Assembly (NCBI RefSeq): GCF_003046475.1
Contig: NZ_PZZZ01000003.1
Location: 62,001 to 126,000, forward strand
Source of the DNA: Mycoplana dimorpha
Lineage (GTDB): Bacteria; Pseudomonadota; Alphaproteobacteria; Rhizobiales; Rhizobiaceae
DNA length: 64,000 nucleotides
Direction of reading: 5' to 3'
Shown: in pieces, positions 35,229-42,854 of the stretch
Position numbering within the stretch: the stretch's first letter is position 1
Layout of the letters: the number at the start of each line of letters is the position of its first letter
Position numbers and translations under genes: made by a program
Notes under the pieces: generated by a model
Told to the model about the DNA's origin: nothing
What the model saw: only the letters and a program-made list of their open reading frames with translations
Databases searched by the model: none

Positions 35229-35415
35229 GTGCTCCTCCCAGGCATTGATCCGGCCGTCAGTGTACTGGTGTCACACGCTGCAGCGAAAATTTATTCGCCA
35301 AATGCTTCTATTTGCGGCGCTTTGCGTCGATTGATGCCGCTGCGGGGCGCGCCCGGTGCTGATTTGCAGTCGCTCAAGCCGTGCGATGCCCAGTATAATT
35401 CTTTGAAATGACGAC

Positions 35416-35439
35416 ATCAGGTGAATAAATTTTCCTGAT
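35416..35439 (+). promoter_or_regulatory. Predicted LysR operator 1 (creatinase promoter)
   Basis: ATCAGG and CCTGAT form 6-bp arms around an AT-rich centre that contains GAATAAATTTTCC (35423-35435). The same 13-mer with one change precedes the ABC importer operon. The site lies about 60 bases upstream of the creatinase start. Confidence 0.6.
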
Positions 35440-35496
35440 GCGAGCCGTCCCATTAACGTCAGCGCCATCTAAGGTCCCAGGCAATGGAGGAATGCG

Positions 35497-36711
35497 ATGA
35501 CCGACGACATGCTGCACGTGATGAAATGGCATAATGGCGAGAAGGACTATTCACCCTTCTCCGACGCCGAGATGACGCGCCGCCAGAACGACGTGCGCAA
35601 ATGGATGGCCGAGAACAAGGTCGATGCGGCCCTGTTCACCTCCTATCACTGCATCAACTACTATTCGGGATGGCTGTACTGCTATTTCGGCCGCAAGTAC
35701 GGCATGGTGATCGACCACAACAACGCCACGACGATCTCGGCGGGCATCGACGGTGGTCAGCCGTGGCGCCGCAGCTTCGGCGACAACATCACCTACACCG
35801 ACTGGCGTCGCGACAACTTCTACCAGGCCGTCCGCCAGCTCACCCCGGGCGCCAAGCGGATCGGCATCGAGTTCGACCACGTTACGCTCGATTTCCGCCG
35901 CACGCTCGAGGAGGCGCTGCCCGGCGTCGAGTTCGTCGATGTCGGCCAGCCCTCGATGTGGATGCGCACCATCAAGTCGCTTGAGGAGCAGAAGCTGATC
36001 CGCGAGGGCGCCCGCGTCTGCGACGTCGGCGGTGCCGCCTGCGTGGCCGCCGTCAAGGCCGGCGTGCCCGAGCATGAGGTGGCGATCGCCACCACCAATG
36101 CGATGATCCGCGAGATCGCCAAGTCGCATCCGTTCGTCGAATTGATGGACACCTGGACCTGGTTCCAGTCCGGCATCAACACCGACGGTGCCCACAACCC
36201 GGTGACCAACCGCATCGTCCAGTCGGGCGACATCCTGTCGCTCAACACCTTCCCGATGATCTTCGGCTACTACACCGCGCTGGAGCGGACGCTGTTCTGC
36301 GATCACGTCGACGACGCCAGCCTCGACATCTGGGAGAAGAACGTCGCCGTTCATCGCCGCGGTCTCGAACTCATCAAGCCCGGCGCCCGCTGCAAGGACA
36401 TCGCCATCGAGCTCAACGAGATGTACCGCGAGTGGGATCTCCTGAAGTACCGCTCGTTCGGCTACGGCCACTCCTTCGGCGTGCTCTGCCATTATTACGG
36501 CCGCGAAGCCGGCGTGGAGCTGCGCGAGGACATCGATACGGTGCTGGAGCCCGGCATGGTGGTGTCGATGGAGCCGATGGTGATGCTGCCCGAAGGCATG
36601 CCCGGCGCCGGCGGCTACCGCGAGCACGACATCCTGATCGTCAAGGAGGATGGCGCCGAGAACATCACCGGCTTCCCCTTCGGCCCCGAGCACAACGTCA
36701 TTCGCAACTGA
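35497..36711 (+). CDS. Creatinase (creatine amidinohydrolase)
   Basis: A 404-residue M24-fold enzyme that hydrolyses creatine to sarcosine and urea without a metal. It aligns along its whole length with Pseudomonas creatinase as I remember it: FTSYHCINYYSGWLYC near residue 47, SAGIDGGQPWRR near residue 81, TWFQSGINTDGAHNPVT near residue 221 with the catalytic His at 233, GYGHSFGVLCHYYGREAG near residue 323, and VSMEPMVMLPEG. The metal ligands of true aminopeptidases are absent, which argues against a peptidase. GGAGG lies 8 bases upstream of the ATG. A terminator follows, and creatininase lies convergently beyond it. Confidence 0.93.
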   Translation: MTDDMLHVMKWHNGEKDYSPFSDAEMTRRQNDVRKWMAENKVDAALFTSYHCINYYSGWLYCYFGRKYGMVIDHNNATTISAGIDGGQPWRRSFGDNITYTDWRRDNFYQAVRQLTPGAKRIGIEFDHVTLDFRRTLEEALPGVEFVDVGQPSMWMRTIKSLEEQKLIREGARVCDVGGAACVAAVKAGVPEHEVAIATTNAMIREIAKSHPFVELMDTWTWFQSGINTDGAHNPVTNRIVQSGDILSLNTFPMIFGYYTALERTLFCDHVDDASLDIWEKNVAVHRRGLELIKPGARCKDIAIELNEMYREWDLLKYRSFGYGHSFGVLCHYYGREAGVELREDIDTVLEPGMVVSMEPMVMLPEGMPGAGGYREHDILIVKEDGAENITGFPFGPEHNVIRN

Positions 36712-36732
36712 GCACGGCTCAGGCCGAAAAGG

Positions 36733-36761
36733 AGGGCCGCCCGGTGTCGGCGGCCCTTTTT
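36733..36761. terminator. Intrinsic terminator between creatinase and creatininase
   Basis: A perfect 9-bp stem AGGGCCGCC / GGCGGCCCT (36733-36741 and 36749-36757) is followed by a T tract on the plus strand and preceded by AAAA, so it may stop transcripts from both sides of this convergent gap. Confidence 0.88.
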
Positions 36762-36785
36762 GTCGGCAGTCGGAATGCTGGCTCG

Positions 36786-37565
36786 TCAGCCGGGAAACTC
36801 GGTACGCAGCGCATCGACGATGCCTCGGACGCAGACATCGAGCAGGATCCGTCCTTTTTCCTCGGAAGCCTGTTTGGGCGAGGAAAGCGTGCCGCTCTGC
36901 GGCGTCCATTCGGGCTTCGGCGGATAGACGTCATAAGGCGGGAAACTGGCGGGCGCATGCTCGATGGCACGCTCGAGATGCACCATATGCGGATGCAGCG
37001 CCAGCATCAGCGATGTCTCAAGTACGCCGCCATGTTCGATTTCCCAGCCGGGAAAGCCGTCCGGGTAGAGCTTCGCGATCGTCGCCTTGTCGACGAAATC
37101 CCAATAGGACAACACCACGATCTTCACGTCGTCGATGCCGCCCCAGCGCAGTTCGCGCAGCGCCAGGTCGATGCCCTCGATGATGAACCAGGAATTCTCG
37201 AAATGGCCGTTCACCAGACAGATTCTACGAACCCCATGCCGGGCGAATTCCTTGATCACGTCGCGCAAGGCCGCGACCAGCGTCGCGCCATCGAGGCTGG
37301 TCGTGCCGGGAAGGTGGTTTCCGCCGCCGGATTTCTGGTGCGACTTGTACCCGTAGGTGAAGGGTGGCGCCACCAGAGCGCCGATCGATTCTGCGACCCG
37401 GCGGGCAAATTCGACCGGCAGAAGCACGTCGACATGCATCGGCATATGATGGCCATGCTGCTCCATCGAGCCGATCGGGATCAGGATCGGAACGGTCCCG
37501 TCCCTGACCTTGGCGTCGTAGTCCGGCCAGGGCAATTCCGCGGCAAAAACTGAATCGGCAGGCAT
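36786..37565 (-). CDS. Creatininase (creatinine amidohydrolase)
   Basis: A 259-residue metal-dependent enzyme that interconverts creatinine and creatine. The metal-site residues of the characterised Pseudomonas enzyme are all present, shifted by one: Glu35, His37 and Asp46 in SMEQHGHHMPMHVDVLLP, and His121 and Glu123 in NGHFENS. YGYKSHQKSGGGNHLPGTTSLDGAT (about residue 71; written here only as a landmark) is also typical, as is EIEHGGVLETSLMLAL. The ATG at 37565 has GGAGG 9 bases upstream; 37571 is an alternative. It is divergent from the LysR gene. Confidence 0.93.
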   Translation of the reverse strand: MPADSVFAAELPWPDYDAKVRDGTVPILIPIGSMEQHGHHMPMHVDVLLPVEFARRVAESIGALVAPPFTYGYKSHQKSGGGNHLPGTTSLDGATLVAALRDVIKEFARHGVRRICLVNGHFENSWFIIEGIDLALRELRWGGIDDVKIVVLSYWDFVDKATIAKLYPDGFPGWEIEHGGVLETSLMLALHPHMVHLERAIEHAPASFPPYDVYPPKPEWTPQSGTLSSPKQASEEKGRILLDVCVRGIVDALRTEFPG

Positions 37566-37622
37566 GTCCATTCTCCTCCTTCTCCATGAGAGGAAGAATG
37601 TTTGCGTTTCCCGATTCGATAT

Positions 37623-37637
37623 GTGAAATTTATTATC
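37623..37637 (-). promoter_or_regulatory. Predicted LysR operator 2 (creatininase/LysR gap)
   Basis: On the minus strand this reads GATAATAAATTTCAC, close to the GAATAAATTTTCC motif upstream of creatinase. It lies about 57 bases from the creatininase start and about 25 bases from the LysR start, the usual place for a LysR autoregulatory site. Confidence 0.5.
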
Positions 37638-37661
37638 GTCATTGCTCCATGAGAAATGTAA

Positions 37662-38573
37662 ATGCGCAACTTCGTCAATTTTCAGACTGATCTTTTGCGT
37701 ACCTTTGTCTCGGTCATCGACCTCGGGGCATTCACCAAGGCCGGAGACGCGCTCGGCCGGACCCAGCCGGCCGTCTCCCTGCAGATCCGCCGGCTCGAGG
37801 AACTTGTCGGCGCGCCGATCATCAAGCAGGTCGGCCGGGCGCTCGTTCTGACCGGAGAAGGCGAGATCCTTCTGAGCTATGCCCGGGAAATCCTGCGCCT
37901 CAACGATGAAGCCGGGTCCTACTTCAATCGCTCGAAGATTGCGGGCGTTCTCCGCGTCGGCCTGCCGAACGACTATGCCGTGGCATTCCTCCAGGGACTG
38001 ATCACCGAGTATACCCGGCAGCATTCGGACATCTCGCTCGAACTGCACTGCGGATGGAGCGCCGAGATCCTTGATCGCTTGCGCTCCGATGAACTCGACC
38101 TCGCCGTTGCCATGGTCAATAACGAGCAGTCACAGTATCTGTCGCGCTCCTGGATCGAGAGGCCCATCTGGGCGGCGGCCGAAAACGCCACATTCGACCC
38201 GTTGCTCGGCATTCCGCTGGCCGCGCACCCGGAAGGCTGCGCCTACCGCGCGCGGATGATCCAGGCCCTGGACAATGCCCAGATCCGCTGGCGCGTGGCC
38301 TATACCGGGTCGGGCATCTCCGGCCTCCAGAACGCCGTGATCAACGGGCTCGGCGTCAGTGCGCTGACGCATTATACGATGCTCCCGGGGATGCGGGCGC
38401 TTGACGAGCGGGACGGATTCCCGCCGCTGGCCGAGATCCGGGTCGGCCTGTTCTACAAGCATCCGCGCCTGTCCGATGCCGGTATCGGACTGGTCAATCA
38501 TGTCATCGCACGCTTGGATGAAGCCGGCGTGTCCCCCGTGGCGATGAACCGGGTGGAGCTGGTGCGCCAATAA
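37662..38573 (+). CDS. LysR family transcriptional regulator of the creatinine locus
   Basis: A 303-residue LysR protein with the N-terminal winged HTH (FVSVIDLGAFTKAGDALGRTQPAVS over residues about 15-40; key pattern AxxLGxTQPAVSxQIRRLE) and a periplasmic-binding-like effector domain from about residue 90. It is transcribed away from creatininase and sits between that gene and the ABC importer operon. The effector is not known; creatinine or creatine is the obvious candidate from context. Shared AT-rich motifs upstream of three units support it as the local regulator. Confidence 0.88.
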   Translation: MRNFVNFQTDLLRTFVSVIDLGAFTKAGDALGRTQPAVSLQIRRLEELVGAPIIKQVGRALVLTGEGEILLSYAREILRLNDEAGSYFNRSKIAGVLRVGLPNDYAVAFLQGLITEYTRQHSDISLELHCGWSAEILDRLRSDELDLAVAMVNNEQSQYLSRSWIERPIWAAAENATFDPLLGIPLAAHPEGCAYRARMIQALDNAQIRWRVAYTGSGISGLQNAVINGLGVSALTHYTMLPGMRALDERDGFPPLAEIRVGLFYKHPRLSDAGIGLVNHVIARLDEAGVSPVAMNRVELVRQ

Positions 38574-38586
38574 GCGAGGCTAATGC

Positions 38587-38610
38587 GAAAATTATTAGAA
38601 TTAATTTTCC
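38587..38610 (+). promoter_or_regulatory. Predicted LysR operator 3 (ABC importer promoter)
   Basis: GAAAATTA and TAATTTTC form perfect 8-bp arms with a 7-base spacer (38587-38609). The right part, GAATTAATTTTCC at 38598-38610, matches operator 1 at 12 of 13 bases. It lies 56 bases upstream of the binding-protein start. Confidence 0.65.
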
Positions 38611-38665
38611 AAATGTATTGCCCCTTACTACGATTTCTGGAAACAACAGAACTAGGGGAACTTCA

Positions 38666-39802
38666 ATGTCTATCAAGAAAACACTTTCAGGATGCCATAG
38701 TCGGCGCACAATTCTGAAGGGTGCTGCCGTCCTCGGCGGTAGCGCGCTCGCCACGCCCTTCGTGAGCCGGCTGGCTTTTGCCGCGCCGGTCGAATTGAAC
38801 ATGCTCGCCTGGTACGGTCACGCCGAACCGGACGTCGTGGCCGAGTTCGAGGCCGAGCACAACGTCAAGTTCAAGCCGAAATACTATACCGGCGGCGACA
38901 ACATGCTGGGGCTGATCGCCCAGTCTCCTCCCGGAACCTTCGACATCATCCTGTCGGACGCCGAATACGTACAGCAGCTCAATGCGGCCGGCTATATCGA
39001 GAAGCTCGATCCTGCCGACTATCCGTTCGACGACTTCTTTCCGGAGTTCCAGAAGTTCCCCGGCCACTGGGAGGGTGACGAACTCTATTCGGTGATCACC
39101 CGCTTCGGTTTCCTCGGGGTCGCCTACAACACCGAGGCCATCACCGAGAAAGAGGCCTCTACCTACAAGGTCTACTGGGACGAGAAGCTCAAGGGCAAGG
39201 TCGGCCATTTCGACTGGCACCTGCCCAATCTCGGCCAGATCAGCCTGCTGAACGGCAATGCTTCTCCCTATGACATCGACGAAGCCGGTTGGGAAAAAGT
39301 GCAGGAAGTAACGAAGACGCTGCGCCCGCAGATCGGCGGCTTCTTCGACTACGGCGGCACCTTTTCGTCGCTGCAGAACGGACAGATGCTGGTCATGGCC
39401 GGCATCGGCGACTGGATCACCGGCGCCCTCGAAAAGGGCGGCGCCAAGGTGCGCACCCAAATCCCAGAGGAAGGCGGGCTGCAGTTCACCGAATCCTTCT
39501 CCATCGGCAAGGGCTCGCAGAAGGCCGATCTCGCCAAGAAGTGGATCCAGTACATCACCTCGGCCAAGGGCCAGGTCAAGTCGGCCAACATGGCGGCCTA
39601 TCCCTGCCTGATCCCGAACAAGAAGGGATGGGAGCTGCTGGCCAAGGAAACGCCGGAAGAGGCGAAGCGTCAGGGCATGCTGCTCAACGAGAGCAACGTG
39701 ATGGATCTGATCCGCGCAGGCCGCATCAAGTACCGGCAGCTGCCGGTGCAGCAGAGCCTTGAAGACTGGAACGACTTCTGGTCCGACTACAAGGCAACGT
39801 GA
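38666..39802 (+). CDS. ABC transporter substrate-binding protein, polyamine type (putative creatinine/creatine binding)
   Basis: A 378-residue PotD/PotF-type periplasmic protein. The N-terminus has a twin-arginine signal (SRRTILKG at about residue 12, then a hydrophobic stretch ending AFAA), so it is probably exported folded by Tat. LAWYGHAEPDVVAEFE near residue 43 and VAYNTEAIT near residue 152 fit the family. The gene is first in the importer operon, with AGGGGAA before the ATG at 38666. The cargo is inferred only from the neighbouring creatinase and creatininase genes; polyamines remain possible. Confidence 0.82.
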   Translation: MSIKKTLSGCHSRRTILKGAAVLGGSALATPFVSRLAFAAPVELNMLAWYGHAEPDVVAEFEAEHNVKFKPKYYTGGDNMLGLIAQSPPGTFDIILSDAEYVQQLNAAGYIEKLDPADYPFDDFFPEFQKFPGHWEGDELYSVITRFGFLGVAYNTEAITEKEASTYKVYWDEKLKGKVGHFDWHLPNLGQISLLNGNASPYDIDEAGWEKVQEVTKTLRPQIGGFFDYGGTFSSLQNGQMLVMAGIGDWITGALEKGGAKVRTQIPEEGGLQFTESFSIGKGSQKADLAKKWIQYITSAKGQVKSANMAAYPCLIPNKKGWELLAKETPEEAKRQGMLLNESNVMDLIRAGRIKYRQLPVQQSLEDWNDFWSDYKAT

Positions 39803-39875
39803 TCGCCGGCAGCCATACGGCTACCCCGGACGTCAGCGCGCTGATTCCGGCAAGGTTGCGCGCAGCGCCGTGAGG

Positions 39876-39904
39876 GGGCGGGCATCAGTCCCGCCCTTTC
39901 TCTT
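39876..39904 (+). terminator. Intra-operon hairpin with T-rich tail
   Basis: GGGCGGG and CCCGCCC (39876-39882, 39890-39896) form a 7-bp stem followed by TTTCTCTT, in the 161-base gap between the binding-protein gene and the first permease. It may act as a partial terminator or as protection of the upstream mRNA, giving more binding protein than permease. Confidence 0.7.
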
Positions 39905-39963
39905 GGGATCATTCGCCACCGCCGGGCGATAACAACTCGTCTGCCGTGGCCGGGACATTCGTA

Positions 39964-40809
39964 ATGCGCAAATCGATTACCCTGTATGGGATGACGTTTT
40001 CACTGCCGATGGCGATCTGGCAGGTAATGTTCTTTCTGGCTCCGCTCGTCTTCCTGATCGCCTTGAGCTTCTGGTCCGTCAAGAACTTCCGAATGGAGCC
40101 GGATTTCAATCCGGACAACTGGACGCGCGTCCTGGGACGTGCCGTCTTCTGGCAGGCCTACCTGAGGACGGTCATCCTGTCGGCGGTCGCAGCCATGGTC
40201 GCCAGCGTGCTTGCCTTTCCCTGCTCGTACGGCATTGCCTTCAAGCTGTCGCCGACCGCGCGGCGCTGGGCCATCTTCATGATGGTCATCCCGTTCTTCA
40301 CCAGCTACCTCGTCCGCGTCTATTCCTGGCAGATATTCCTGTCTGACAACGGCATCATCAACGCGGCGCTGGCACGGGTCGGGCTTGGGCCGTTTCCCAT
40401 GCTGAACTCGGACTTCGGCGTGATGGTCGGCTATCTCACCCTGTGCTTTCCGCTGGTGGTGCTGCTGCAGCTCTTCAGCCTGATCTTCGTCGACAGGACC
40501 TTGATCGAGGCGGCGCACAACCTGCAATGCGGCCGGCTGCGCACCGTCTTCGAGGTCGTCATGCCGTCCGCCAAGGTCGGGCTGGTGATCGCCGCGCTCT
40601 TCTGCTTCATCCTCACCTTCGGGGATTTCGTCAGCCCGCTCTATCTCGGCGGCGGTGATCCGCCGACGCTCTCCATCCTGATCACCGACACCACCAAGTC
40701 CGGGCAGCAATGGCCGCGCGCCGCGGTGATCGCCCTGACCATGATCGCAACCCTGCTCTGCGTCGCCTTCGCCGCCGTGAGCTACGCCTACAGGGAGCGC
40801 GGACGATGA
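39964..40809 (+). CDS. ABC transporter permease, PotB/PotH type
   Basis: A 281-residue inner-membrane permease with about six hydrophobic segments, the first at residues about 12-33. The cytoplasmic coupling loop (EAAHNLQCGRLRTVFEVVMP region, about residue 188) is the EAA motif that contacts the ATPase. I chose the ATG at 39964; a GTG at 39946 would add six residues without a ribosome site. Its stop overlaps the second permease start as ATGA. Substrate as for the binding protein. Confidence 0.88.
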   Translation: MRKSITLYGMTFSLPMAIWQVMFFLAPLVFLIALSFWSVKNFRMEPDFNPDNWTRVLGRAVFWQAYLRTVILSAVAAMVASVLAFPCSYGIAFKLSPTARRWAIFMMVIPFFTSYLVRVYSWQIFLSDNGIINAALARVGLGPFPMLNSDFGVMVGYLTLCFPLVVLLQLFSLIFVDRTLIEAAHNLQCGRLRTVFEVVMPSAKVGLVIAALFCFILTFGDFVSPLYLGGGDPPTLSILITDTTKSGQQWPRAAVIALTMIATLLCVAFAAVSYAYRERGR

Positions 40810-41627
40810 GCCCACACAACCGCAATCAATGGATCGACTGGGGATTGAAGCTCTATATCCTACTGTCGTTCGCCTTCATCTTCGCGCCGATCGCCGCGAG
40901 CTTCGTCTTCTCGCTGAACGTCGACCGTTTCCCGTCAATGCCGCTCGGCGGCTTCTCGACCATCTGGTACGAAGCCGTCTATGCCGATCCGCTCGTCTGG
41001 GAGGGCCTGCGCAACACGCTGGTGACCGGCGTTGTCGTCTCCCTGACGGCCACGGCCATCGGCTTCGGCGCCGCCTACACCGACTTCCGCTACCGCTTCT
41101 TCGGAAAGCCCGTTTACCTGGCGCTGGCGTTGCTGCCGCCGACCATTCCGGTCGTCATTCTCGGCCTGGCGATGCTGGCGTTCCTGGCCAACATCAGGCT
41201 TTCCGGCGAGATCTATTCGGTGATCATCGCCCACGTGGTGATGTGCGCCCCGTTCGCCATGGCGATCATTCGCCTGCGGTTGTCGCAGATGGATCCCTCA
41301 CTCGAAGCGGCGGCATGGAACCTCGGCGCGTCCGAGTGGATGGCGATGCGGCACGTGATCGTGCCGTTCTGCCGGCCGGCCATCTTTGCCGCCCTGTTCA
41401 TCACCATGGCCGTGTCCTTCGACGAGTTCGCAGTCGCCTGGTTCGTATCCGGGCTGCACGAGACGCTGCCCGTCAAGGTCCTCGGCTTCCTCCAGGGCCA
41501 GGTGAGCCCACGCATCAACGTCATCGGCACCTTCGTGTTCCTCGTCTCGATGACCCTTGTGGTGCTCGCCCAGCTCCTTCTCATGAAACGCAGTGCCGCG
41601 CCGAAAGCCGCCGGAAAAGTGGAGTAA
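40806..41627 (+). CDS. ABC transporter permease, PotC/PotI type
   Basis: A 273-residue permease, partner of the preceding one. About six membrane segments are visible, starting at residues about 14-36. The EAA loop is LEAAAWNLGASEWMAMRHV at about residue 165. Translational coupling to the first permease (ATGA) and six bases to the ATPase gene show a single operon. Confidence 0.9.
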   Translation: MSPHNRNQWIDWGLKLYILLSFAFIFAPIAASFVFSLNVDRFPSMPLGGFSTIWYEAVYADPLVWEGLRNTLVTGVVVSLTATAIGFGAAYTDFRYRFFGKPVYLALALLPPTIPVVILGLAMLAFLANIRLSGEIYSVIIAHVVMCAPFAMAIIRLRLSQMDPSLEAAAWNLGASEWMAMRHVIVPFCRPAIFAALFITMAVSFDEFAVAWFVSGLHETLPVKVLGFLQGQVSPRINVIGTFVFLVSMTLVVLAQLLLMKRSAAPKAAGKVE

Positions 41628-41633
41628 CCCTGA

Positions 41634-42728
41634 ATGTCAACGGAAGCATTGGTCGTCTTCGACGGCGTCATCAAGAAGTTCGGTCAGTTCCTCGCCGTCG
41701 AGCGCGTCGATTTCGAGATCCGAAAGGGCGAGTTCCTGGCGATCATGGGTTCGAGCGGCTGCGGCAAGACCACGACGCTGCGCATGCTGGCCGGCCTCGA
41801 GGCGCCGACCGAAGGTGAAATTCGGCTTGCTGGAAAACGGATCAACGACCTGCCGACATGGCAGCGCGACACGCCGATGGTATGGCAGAGCCTGGCGCTT
41901 TTCCCGTTCCTCACCGTGCGCGAGAACGTCGAGTTCAGCCTGCGGATGCGCAAGATCGAGAAGGCGGAACGGCAACGCCGGGTCGACGAGTGGCTCGAGC
42001 GGATGCAGATCACAGAATTCGCCGACCGTAACGTCGCCCACCTGTCCGGCGGCCAGCGCCAGCGCGTGGCGCTGGCCCGATCGCTGGTCACCGAGCCGGA
42101 AATCCTGCTGCTCGACGAGCCCCTGTCCGCGCTCGACGCCCATCTGAAGGTGCGGATGCAGACGGTGCTTTCCAATCTGCAGCGCGAACTCGGGATCACT
42201 TTCGTCTATGTGACCCACAGTCAGTCCGAGGCGTTCTCGATGGCCGACCGCGTCGTCATCATGAGCCGCGGCCGGATCGAGCAGATCGGTAACCCGCAGG
42301 AGATCTACCGCGCTCCGCGAACGAAATTCGTGGCCGAGTTCCTCGGTTCCTCCAACATTTTCAGCGGCCAGGTGACGACGGCTGGAAACGGGATGATCCG
42401 GATCGCGACGCCGGCCGGCGAATTCGACGCGGTATCCGGCGCCGCCAAGGCGCTCGGCAAGGGCGACAAGGCGACCTTCGTTGTTTCGGATGACCGGATC
42501 CAACTGAGCAATCAGCGGCCGGAGACCGGCAACGCCCTGCGGGCTTCGGTGGTCGGCGAGGAATTCGTCGGCGCCACCGCTGTCGTTCACCTCGAAAACC
42601 CTGCGGGAGGGCTCGAGCTGAAGGCCCAGAAGAGCCATGAGGAACTGGAGCACCTGGATCTTTCACCCGGTGCCCAGGTGTGGCTGTCCTGGCGCCCCGA
42701 GGCGGCGCACATTCTGCCGGGCGAGTGA
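41634..42728 (+). CDS. ABC transporter ATP-binding protein, PotA type
   Basis: A 364-residue ATPase. Walker A GSSGCGKTT at residues 39-47, the signature LSGGQRQRVALARSL near residue 135 and Walker B ILLLDEPLSALD near residue 155 are intact; the H-loop is in VYVTHSQSEA. The C-terminal part (from about residue 285) is a TOBE regulatory domain. It closes the importer operon, followed by a strong hairpin. Confidence 0.93.
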   Translation: MSTEALVVFDGVIKKFGQFLAVERVDFEIRKGEFLAIMGSSGCGKTTTLRMLAGLEAPTEGEIRLAGKRINDLPTWQRDTPMVWQSLALFPFLTVRENVEFSLRMRKIEKAERQRRVDEWLERMQITEFADRNVAHLSGGQRQRVALARSLVTEPEILLLDEPLSALDAHLKVRMQTVLSNLQRELGITFVYVTHSQSEAFSMADRVVIMSRGRIEQIGNPQEIYRAPRTKFVAEFLGSSNIFSGQVTTAGNGMIRIATPAGEFDAVSGAAKALGKGDKATFVVSDDRIQLSNQRPETGNALRASVVGEEFVGATAVVHLENPAGGLELKAQKSHEELEHLDLSPGAQVWLSWRPEAAHILPGE

Positions 42729-42825
42729 GCCGGGACATTCCGCTCGCTAGTCGGTCGACGGAACCGGTCGATCTTTGGCAAGACCGAACGGTCATCGGCT
42801 GCAAGTCGTCGGTTCATGAGATAAG

Positions 42826-42854
42826 CCGGACGTCGCTGGTGCAGCGACGTCCGG
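42826..42854 (+). terminator. Hairpin ending the ABC importer operon
   Basis: A perfect 13-bp stem, CCGGACGTCGCTG / CAGCGACGTCCGG, with a 3-base loop lies 98 bases after the ATPase stop, in the 228-base convergent gap before paaZ. Only a short TTT follows, so termination may be only partly intrinsic. Confidence 0.7.

Follow-up and report, generated by a model that had tools for sequence, protein, structure and literature searches.

A PotD-like ABC importer linked to creatinine and creatine breakdown genes and to a predicted LysR operator in Mycoplana dimorpha

Creatinine and creatine are common nitrogenous compounds, with urine as one source, and are broken down in the order creatininase, creatinase, sarcosine oxidase. 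Published work also names meat, sponges and algae as sources. In the 64,000-nucleotide stretch of Mycoplana dimorpha DNA analyzed here (the window), genes for the first two enzymes stand in one block with a LysR-type regulator and an ABC importer that is publicly annotated for spermidine and putrescine. We asked whether this importer belongs with the enzymes and, if so, what it is likely to carry.

Genes of the locus and their company in other genomes

Positions 35497-42728 are occupied by the following genes, all of them intact:

35497-36711, + strand: creatinase (creatine amidinohydrolase), 404 aa, full-length match to solved creatinases
36786-37571, - strand: creatininase (creatinine amidohydrolase), 261 aa, called from TIGR04448 and active-site residues
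37662-38573, + strand: LysR-type regulator, divergent to creatininase
38666-39802, + strand: solute-binding protein with PotD-like fold and Tat signal SRRTILK
39964-40809, + strand: ABC permease 1, with ATG 39964 suggested by homologues
40806-41627, + strand: ABC permease 2, overlapping permease 1 by 4 bp
41634-42728, + strand: ABC ATPase with TOBE domain

The frame of permease 1 opens at GTG 39946, and its start at 39964 was chosen from homologues.

The 404-aa frame aligns over its full length with the creatine amidinohydrolases 7yto, 1kp0 and 1chm, differing from 7yto at 18 of 404 positions as counted on the alignment. It also keeps, as H233, E263, R336, E359, F64 and R66, all of the residues that we take to be catalytic in Pseudomonas putida creatinase (H232, E262, R335, E358, F62 and R64). 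By full-length similarity and catalytic residues it is a creatinase, with predicted activity on creatine. The 261-aa protein scored 374.5 bits against NCBIfam TIGR04448 (cut-off, 235) and matched 1j2t at E 6.3e-115. What are presumably the metal ligands of creatininase (E34, H36, D45, H120 and E122), together with W154, W174 and H178, are all retained as E37, H39, D48, H123, E125, W157, W176 and H180. The TIGR04448 cut-off is also passed by two relatives, about 50% identical, in locus L118 (355 and 351 bits). A preliminary description of this DNA had reported full-length creatinase and creatininase with their key active-site residues, which the structure alignments, the TIGR04448 score and the retained residues bear out, as well as a LysR gene and a Tat-signal binding protein with two permeases and an ATPase in the same block, all of which we found present and intact.

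Conserved linkage to creatininase and creatinase, as would be expected of a dedicated importer, was found among related loci, same-family genomes and plasmids. The binding protein has 343 relatives, of which we counted the best 80, close relatives only (70-88% identical, own-genome stretches L001 and L002 left out). In 76 of these 80 loci creatininase lies within 4 kb of the binding-protein gene, and in 72 creatinase is on the retrieved stretch, some stretches being ended by contig ends. Two of the four loci without a nearby creatininase belong to genomes with creatininase on another contig. In 199 genomes of the same family, creatininase (at least 80% identical) and the binding protein (at least 78%) occurred in the identical 7 genomes, always about 3 kb apart or closer (7/7; hypergeometric P 4.5e-13, kinship ignored). 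Seventeen of 22 plasmid records were examined, comprising all 12 with a binding protein at least 70% identical and 5 of the 10 below; creatininase, creatinase and LysR stood alongside it in 12/12 of the former. A class-level sample gave a match at E 1e-60 in 4 of 142 genomes, own genome included; as nearly every family in it was represented by a single genome, it is too sparse for counts. The creatininase-importer linkage is kept in three gene orders, one of which is a common operon, and since it persists through these rearrangements, we rejected chance neighborhood as an explanation. In the beta-proteobacterium Azoarcus KH32C (64%) the genes stand in yet another order, which includes hydantoinase subunits.

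A predicted operator for the LysR regulator

We trained a 48-bp motif on the creatininase/LysR intergenic regions of other genomes only, with the window excluded, and scanned the window with it. The following sites were found:

37619-37666, + strand: predicted LysR operator 1, 47 bp ahead of the creatininase start, overlapping the start of LysR; 49.4 bits, window held out of training
38567-38614, - strand: predicted LysR operator 2, 51 bp ahead of the binding-protein start; 25.6 bits, site type absent from the training set
35392-35439, - strand: predicted LysR operator 3, 57 bp ahead of the creatinase start; 19.1 bits, site type absent from the training set
35280-35327, + strand: possible weaker fourth copy upstream of creatinase; 6.2 bits

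Operators 1 to 3 share the same relative orientation, lie 47-57 bp ahead of start codons and each match the motif core perfectly. From -10.3 downward, the remaining window scores come from these sites read in reverse, and the top score in 60 shuffled windows was 3.0. The core, a pattern written after the three window sites had been seen, matches perfectly at three places in the 4.6-Mb genome, each of them within this locus.

Where further loci encode a LysR at least 42% identical, the motif was found immediately before that gene in 20 of 20, 12 of which were outside the training set; its best score was 0.0 in 30 loci without this LysR. Presence with LysR and absence without it indicate that the motif follows the regulator. 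A chance AT-rich stretch was rejected as an explanation on the basis of the shuffles, the genome core scan and the regulator-less loci.

Placement before the individual genes varies among the 80 loci, of which 79, 75, 75 and 69 remained for the binding protein, creatininase, LysR and creatinase, respectively, after leaving out those with an upstream stretch running off the contig. Scores stayed below 8 bits ahead of creatinase in 31 of 69 and ahead of the binding-protein gene in 51 of 79; of the latter 51 loci, 20 have creatininase as the first gene of the operon and 31 do not. These gaps weigh against the regulon reading, as do the Pseudomonas and Azoarcus loci, which have neither this LysR nor the motif. 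It precedes creatininase in 73 of 75 and LysR in 74 of 75, which are largely training sites and so no test. With three motif-bearing promoters here and no perfect core match elsewhere in the genome, the enzymes and the importer look like one small LysR regulon.

The binding protein and its probable ligand

The importer has been labeled as a spermidine/putrescine system, and its fold favors one: the binding protein has the PotD-like two-lobed fold, and its best solved structural matches are the polyamine binders PotD and PotF. The 50 matches listed by each of Foldseek and VIA-align included no creatinine- or creatine-binding protein, from which absence of such proteins does not follow. The same fold, however, also takes GABA and opines, as in the binding proteins Atu4243, SAR11 PotD with GABA, and MotA, showing that importers with this fold handle other small nitrogen compounds, so the ligand is not named by the fold. 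Compared with PotABCD and PotFGHI (1pot, 1a99 and 8y5i), the protein scores far below the family cut-offs (NCBIfam PotD, 42.6 versus 582 bits; PotF, 38.1 versus 636; YdcS, 21.4 versus 725). Two of the three acids that we take to hold polyamine in PotD, D168 and E171, align with W184 and N188, while the third, D257, is kept as E276. Among 85 creatininase-linked binding proteins, W184 is present in all and N188 in 84, and D98, E100 and E276 are invariant (85/85). A polyamine ligand is further favored by the name "spermidine/putrescine binding protein" in 13 of 17 annotated plasmid records, by GO polyamine transport terms in several of the plasmid records examined, and by arginase/agmatinase-family genes, whose product can be putrescine, near the distant importers L118, L125, L129, L146, L147 and L163. 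Against this stand the linkage, co-occurrence and common motif with the creatinine genes. On family cut-offs, pocket and gene company we therefore rejected a polyamine importer merely adjoining creatinine genes, which we regard as very improbable; the public label is probably wrong.

Our main reading, to which we assign a probability of roughly 0.8, is a self-contained locus for uptake and breakdown of creatinine and/or creatine, with enzymes and importer under one LysR regulator. The PotD-like protein, probably exported folded by the Tat system given its twin-arginine motif SRRTILK, would capture its ligand (creatinine, creatine or both) in the periplasm for import by the two permeases and the ATPase. 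Cytoplasmic creatininase would then convert creatinine to creatine, creatinase would yield sarcosine and urea, and sarcosine oxidase from another contig would turn sarcosine into glycine and a C1 unit. Through the common operator, the locus-encoded LysR would control both enzyme genes and the importer operon as well as its own gene. The genes, their linkage and co-occurrence, and the motif and its placement were computed directly; from these we infer the ligand, the direction of transport, and the binding and effector of LysR. The preliminary description had proposed an importer for creatinine, creatine or a close guanidino compound, and linkage, co-occurrence and the LysR-linked motif support such a role.

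The genome holds 13 SoxB-like matches, none of them on the window's contig, in keeping with the earlier statement that no sarcosine oxidase lies beside the locus; SoxB adjoins the cluster in 15 of the 80 relatives. One own-genome SoxB (C5:208071-209318) is 76% identical to a cluster-linked SoxB and is followed by frames that, read by eye, are soxD- and soxA-like, so that soxB, soxD and soxA of a heterotetrameric sarcosine oxidase occur in this genome. A motif search found no predicted operator before this soxB. A urease gene had also been reported missing beside the locus, and we found no urease alpha subunit anywhere in the genome and no urea carboxylase above the cut-off, so two of the three nitrogens would leave as urea.

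Within the main reading we favor creatinine as the ligand, at somewhat better than even odds, because creatininase, rather than creatinase, directly precedes the binding-protein gene on the same strand in 20 loci, and because genes for enzymes of cyclic amidines are frequent neighbors of distant importers. Genes of the creatininase family and genes for cyclic nitrogen-base deaminases often adjoin these distant importers. Both observations speak against a narrower version, which we consider unlikely and whose odds overlap with those of the main reading, in which the importer carries zwitterionic creatine and not creatinine, and creatininase is explained by spontaneous creatine cyclization or by a separate creatinine carrier. 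That version draws on the linkage of creatinase (72 of 80 retrieved stretches), which has its own motif copy, on the cytosine-permease-type and MFS carriers that Azoarcus has besides the ABC importer, and on Corynebacterium glutamicum, in which CrnT (creatinine) and CreT (linked to creatine) are distinct carriers (PMC8864220). Loci L051 and L063 also argue against it: both retain the importer together with creatininase, yet a search at E 1e-40 gave a single creatinase relative in their genomes, 56% identical and located elsewhere. Since these genomes retain that relative, which may or may not be active, absence of creatinase was dropped as a discriminator between creatine and creatinine; the L021 genome has no creatinase at E 1e-40, though a creatinase fragment stands where its contig ends.

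A broader ligand class, compatible with the main reading and overlapping it in odds, is a tentative alternative, perhaps slightly less doubtful than creatine alone: the importer would serve small cyclic amidines (creatinine and cytosine-like or hydantoin-like bases) and have been recruited to creatinine in this clade. We built a quick tree of 130 rows (80 plus 49 loci and the window, none dropped, long branches flagged). Sister groups carry cytosine/nucleoside-deaminase-like, guanine-deaminase-like, TRZ/ATZ aminohydrolase, adenine-phosphoribosyltransferase-like and creatininase-family genes. One subgroup of the same clade has BtpA, phosphoribosyltransferase or deacetylase-like neighbors instead of creatininase in 13 of its 14 rows, which points to a possibly wider class of ligand; L130 and L078 carry the neighbors of the other subgroup, and both subgroups share the LysR motif. 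Among the best 80 of 343, however, the creatininase link is nearly exclusive (76 of 80), in favor of a narrow ligand in these loci.

Relation to known systems

Creatinine catabolism in Arthrobacter TE1826 and Pseudomonas involves the same enzymes in the same pathway order as here, and we know of no PotD-type importer described for it. Among named carriers, CrnT is presumably a single permease. PMC8864220, which cites the Arthrobacter and Pseudomonas work, describes crnT, codA and creT-crnA of C. glutamicum as being under AmtR and co-regulated for nitrogen use. As in this locus, transporter genes there stand alongside creatinine/creatine enzymes. In contrast, CreT is an MFS protein, CrnT is named as the creatinine transporter and the regulator is TetR-type rather than LysR-type; the passages on these genes describe no ABC importer for either compound. 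CrnT and CreT were the bacterial transporters for these compounds encountered in the literature. Among the papers listed, our search of the open-access literature found no report of a bacterial ABC importer for creatinine or creatine, and to that extent the earlier claim that such a dedicated importer is undescribed held. We lean toward regarding this as the first recognized ABC transporter for creatinine/creatine, in an unnamed PotD-fold family for small cyclic amidines that spans alpha-, beta- and gamma-proteobacteria, is filed in databases under spermidine/putrescine transport and here shares a three-promoter LysR regulon with both enzymes.

The finding would correct the polyamine annotation on 13 of 17 annotated plasmid relatives, and a protein that naturally binds creatinine would offer a ready-made starting point for sensing this kidney marker. 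The locus makes uptake of creatinine and creatine by alpha-proteobacteria testable through single-gene deletions. According to PMC8864220, Roseobacter denitrificans lacks a CreT homologue but grows on creatine, and another entry route may exist; the importer could also explain creatine/creatinine uptake by roseobacters lacking CreT.

Linkage of the importer to creatininase

Using the binding protein as the query in a pattern scan of a genome collection (84,980 species by the collection's description), we recovered 343 relatives, the best 80 of which (70-88% identity) form our 80-locus set. Among these best 80 of 343, 76 loci have a creatininase of 62% identity or more no farther than 4 kb from the binding-protein gene, and in 72 creatinase is present on the fetched stretch, with some copies clipped by a contig end. 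The four loci with no creatininase nearby are L037 and L070 (both short stretches), L055 and L078. The L055 and L070 genomes carry both creatininase and creatinase on a different contig, while a search at E 1e-40 found no creatininase in the L037 and L078 genomes.

Gene order in the creatininase-importer loci is not frozen. As in the window, creatininase is opposite in strand to the importer, with the LysR gene in between, in 54 of 76 loci; the two share a strand in the other 22. Creatininase lies directly 5' of the binding-protein gene in 20 of these 22, with a divergent LysR on its far side in 19 of the 20, followed by creatinase in 17. The remaining two are Pseudomonas loci, in which creatininase sits behind the ATPase gene; next come genes for an amino-acid-permease-like protein and a GlxA-like regulator, then creatinase. 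The order in Azoarcus KH32C is GlxA, an M24 protein (65% to creatinase), creatininase, cytosine permease, importer, MFS carrier, and hydantoinase A and B. Neither the two Pseudomonas loci nor the Azoarcus one has the window-type LysR.

In a sample of 199 same-family genomes, creatininase at 80% identity or above occurs in seven and the binding protein at 78% or above in the identical seven, always within about 3 kb of each other (hypergeometric P 4.5e-13, kinship ignored). Weaker importer relatives in this sample (63-65% in genomes G223 and G325, 49-51% in G307 and G208, 28-32% in the rest) adjoin no creatininase of that class; the G307 relative has a creatininase-family gene on either flank, both about 50% identical. 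All 12 plasmid records whose binding protein is at least 70% identical have creatininase (77-88%), creatinase (78-95%) and LysR (51-86%) next to it; some come from species that the 80-locus set includes too. The annotation reads spermidine/putrescine binding protein in 13 of 17 annotated plasmid records (22 in all). The creatinine cluster resides on large plasmids of Mesorhizobium, Sinorhizobium, Shinella, Paracoccus, Ensifer, Microvirga, Leisingera and Azoarcus (records H1-H13), some predicted to be conjugative or mobilizable, a distribution suggestive of horizontal spread.

A shared predicted LysR operator

The creatininase-LysR intergenic regions of the window and 81 loci have in common a 48-bp element of 47.8 bits in all, in which a consensus of about ATATGGAAAATTTATAGTCGCAATCCTTGCAT precedes a weaker half. 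We scanned the whole 64 kb with a matrix from whose training the window had been held out.

Predicted elements in the window (position, score, location)
37619, 49.4 bits, creatininase/LysR intergenic region
38567, 25.6 bits, upstream of the binding-protein gene
35392, 19.1 bits, upstream of creatinase
35280, 6.2 bits, upstream of creatinase, second place

The next-best window scores (-10.3 to -12.3) were reverse reads of the same sites, and the top score among 60 dinucleotide shuffles of the window was 3.0. Three of the sites share one orientation relative to the gene, lying 47 bp (creatininase), 51 bp (binding protein) and 57 bp (creatinase) upstream of the start codon. For the importer and creatinase promoters, this matrix scan is an independent test. 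A 12-base core has exactly three perfect matches in the 4,592,697-base genome, namely these three window sites, and four further places with one mismatch; the pattern read backwards, as a control, has one match at up to one mismatch. The core was written after the three sites had been seen, and the genome scan therefore shows rarity and is no independent discovery. On these predicted operators, the enzymes and the importer would form one regulon.

Across the 80-locus set, the element scores above 8 bits before creatininase in 73 of 75 loci and before LysR in 74 of 75, counts that are no test because these are largely the training sites. Copies above 8 bits also precede the binding-protein gene in 28 of 79 loci and creatinase in 38 of 69. 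In Sinorhizobium americanum, where creatinase is flipped, the element still precedes it in the same relative orientation (15.3 bits). Among the 51 loci with no element before the binding protein, 20 have creatininase directly 5' of that gene, and the element precedes creatininase in 19 of them (the contig of the twentieth, L058, begins too near to tell). The other 31 of the 80, mostly Paracoccaceae and relatives, have no recognisable copy before the importer; there the importer gene comes after LysR, and the creatininase/LysR region usually has the element. In these 31, the importer's own site may have changed beyond recognition, or transcription of the importer may start at the LysR promoter. 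Extending the scan to 50 further loci (L078, L103 and L116-L163), we found that each of the 20 whose LysR is at least 42% identical carries the element before that gene (12 from outside the training set, 8 from within it) and that the remaining 30 lack it (best score 0.0).

Ligand and importer family

Among the hits listed from an open-access library, which included PMC6742649, PMC11812461, PMC7921472 and PMC12625717, we found no description of an ABC importer that brings creatinine or creatine into bacteria. PMC8864220 describes CrnT and CreT and the growth of R. denitrificans OCh114 on creatine without a CreT homologue; creatinine supports growth of both Roseobacter species, according to PMC3141670.

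The preliminary description proposed creatinine, creatine or a close guanidino compound as cargo of this polyamine-type importer. In profile alignments of the binding protein to PotD, the residues that we take to be the PotD polyamine contacts (W34, S83, Y85, D168, E171, W229, W255 and D257) correspond to W49, D98, E100, W184, N188, G248, F274 and E276, respectively. All 85 creatininase-linked rows share W49, D98, E100, W184 and E276 (N188 is found in 84); the five are also kept by a BtpA-linked subgroup, so that alone they are no mark of creatinine. The binding protein lacks two of the three presumed polyamine acids and has new ones elsewhere, a pattern that could be the one expected for a short planar amidine. 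The ligand may be creatinine, creatine or both, and we give creatinine a probability of about 0.6.

Across the wider family, the evidence on ligand comes from the genes that accompany remoter importers. We placed 130 binding proteins in a quick tree; there the window protein falls into a clade of 102 rows (support 99), together with the creatininase-linked rows, Pseudomonas among them, and the BtpA subgroup of 14 rows (support 100). Of these 14, 13 neighbour genes resembling BtpA, adenine phosphoribosyltransferase or polysaccharide deacetylase, the deacetylase type being also weakly similar to allantoinase PuuE; a nucleoside-deaminase-like gene accompanies them in some. The fourteenth row, L130, has creatininase and creatinase in place of BtpA-type neighbours, while L078 has a creatininase-subgroup binding protein, yet neighbours BtpA and phosphoribosyltransferase; neighbour sets are thus exchanged between the two subgroups. 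Subgroup members (L116 6139-15702; also L117, L125-L129, L131-L136 and L175) vary in which of these genes, or of cytosine or nucleoside deaminase genes, they carry. L116 has an additional frame resembling, by eye, ribose-phosphate pyrophosphokinase, and most members having the LysR share the motif. The substrate in this subgroup could be a phosphoribosylated base, or the genes could form a second route for creatinine.

Outside the clade, a 16-row group (support 89, drawn open) has creatininase-family genes in 10 rows, a guanine-deaminase-like gene close by in 4 others and neither in 2; several members also have TRZ/ATZ-type aminohydrolases. Agmatinase/arginase-family genes near L118, L125, L129, L146, L147 and L163 fit guanidino compounds and also allow a polyamine link there. 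At L118 (3301-15102), an importer relative (about 50%) lies between two creatininase-family genes of about 50% identity, which both clear the creatininase model at 355 and 351 bits; an agmatinase-like gene and two for amidohydrolases are present as well. Either the model may extend beyond true creatininase, or the locus may encode a pathway for guanidino compounds.

Sarcosine and urea

Sarcosine oxidase genes adjoin the cluster in a minority of the 80 loci (SoxB 15, SoxA 15, SoxD 14), as searched with queries from L067, itself one of those loci. Microvirga VF16 has soxA and soxG nearby, plus purU, glyA and an L-serine ammonia-lyase gene. The Mycoplana genome encodes a 76% identical SoxB on another contig (C5:208071), followed by frames reading as soxD and soxA, and also another SoxB-like protein (50%). 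About 13 kb from soxB lies a second creatininase-family gene (C5:194085-194792; L101 6047-6844), adjoining a frame that resembles, by eye, a CobW/COG0523 metal-chaperone GTPase; no element was found around this gene or soxB in the stretches L101 and L102. A 31% identical binding-protein paralogue with its own importer (C6:294816-295928; L103 8766-9938) has on one side a TRZ/ATZ-type aminohydrolase gene and on the other a second cluster resembling sarcosine oxidase, in which one frame resembles glutamine synthetase by eye.

Although the creatinase reaction yields urea, we found in this genome neither a urease alpha subunit (control genomes were positive in 4 of 14) nor a urea carboxylase above the cut-off, with 15 weaker matches to the latter. 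Barring an unrecognised route, urea would therefore be a waste product of creatinine use in Mycoplana dimorpha.
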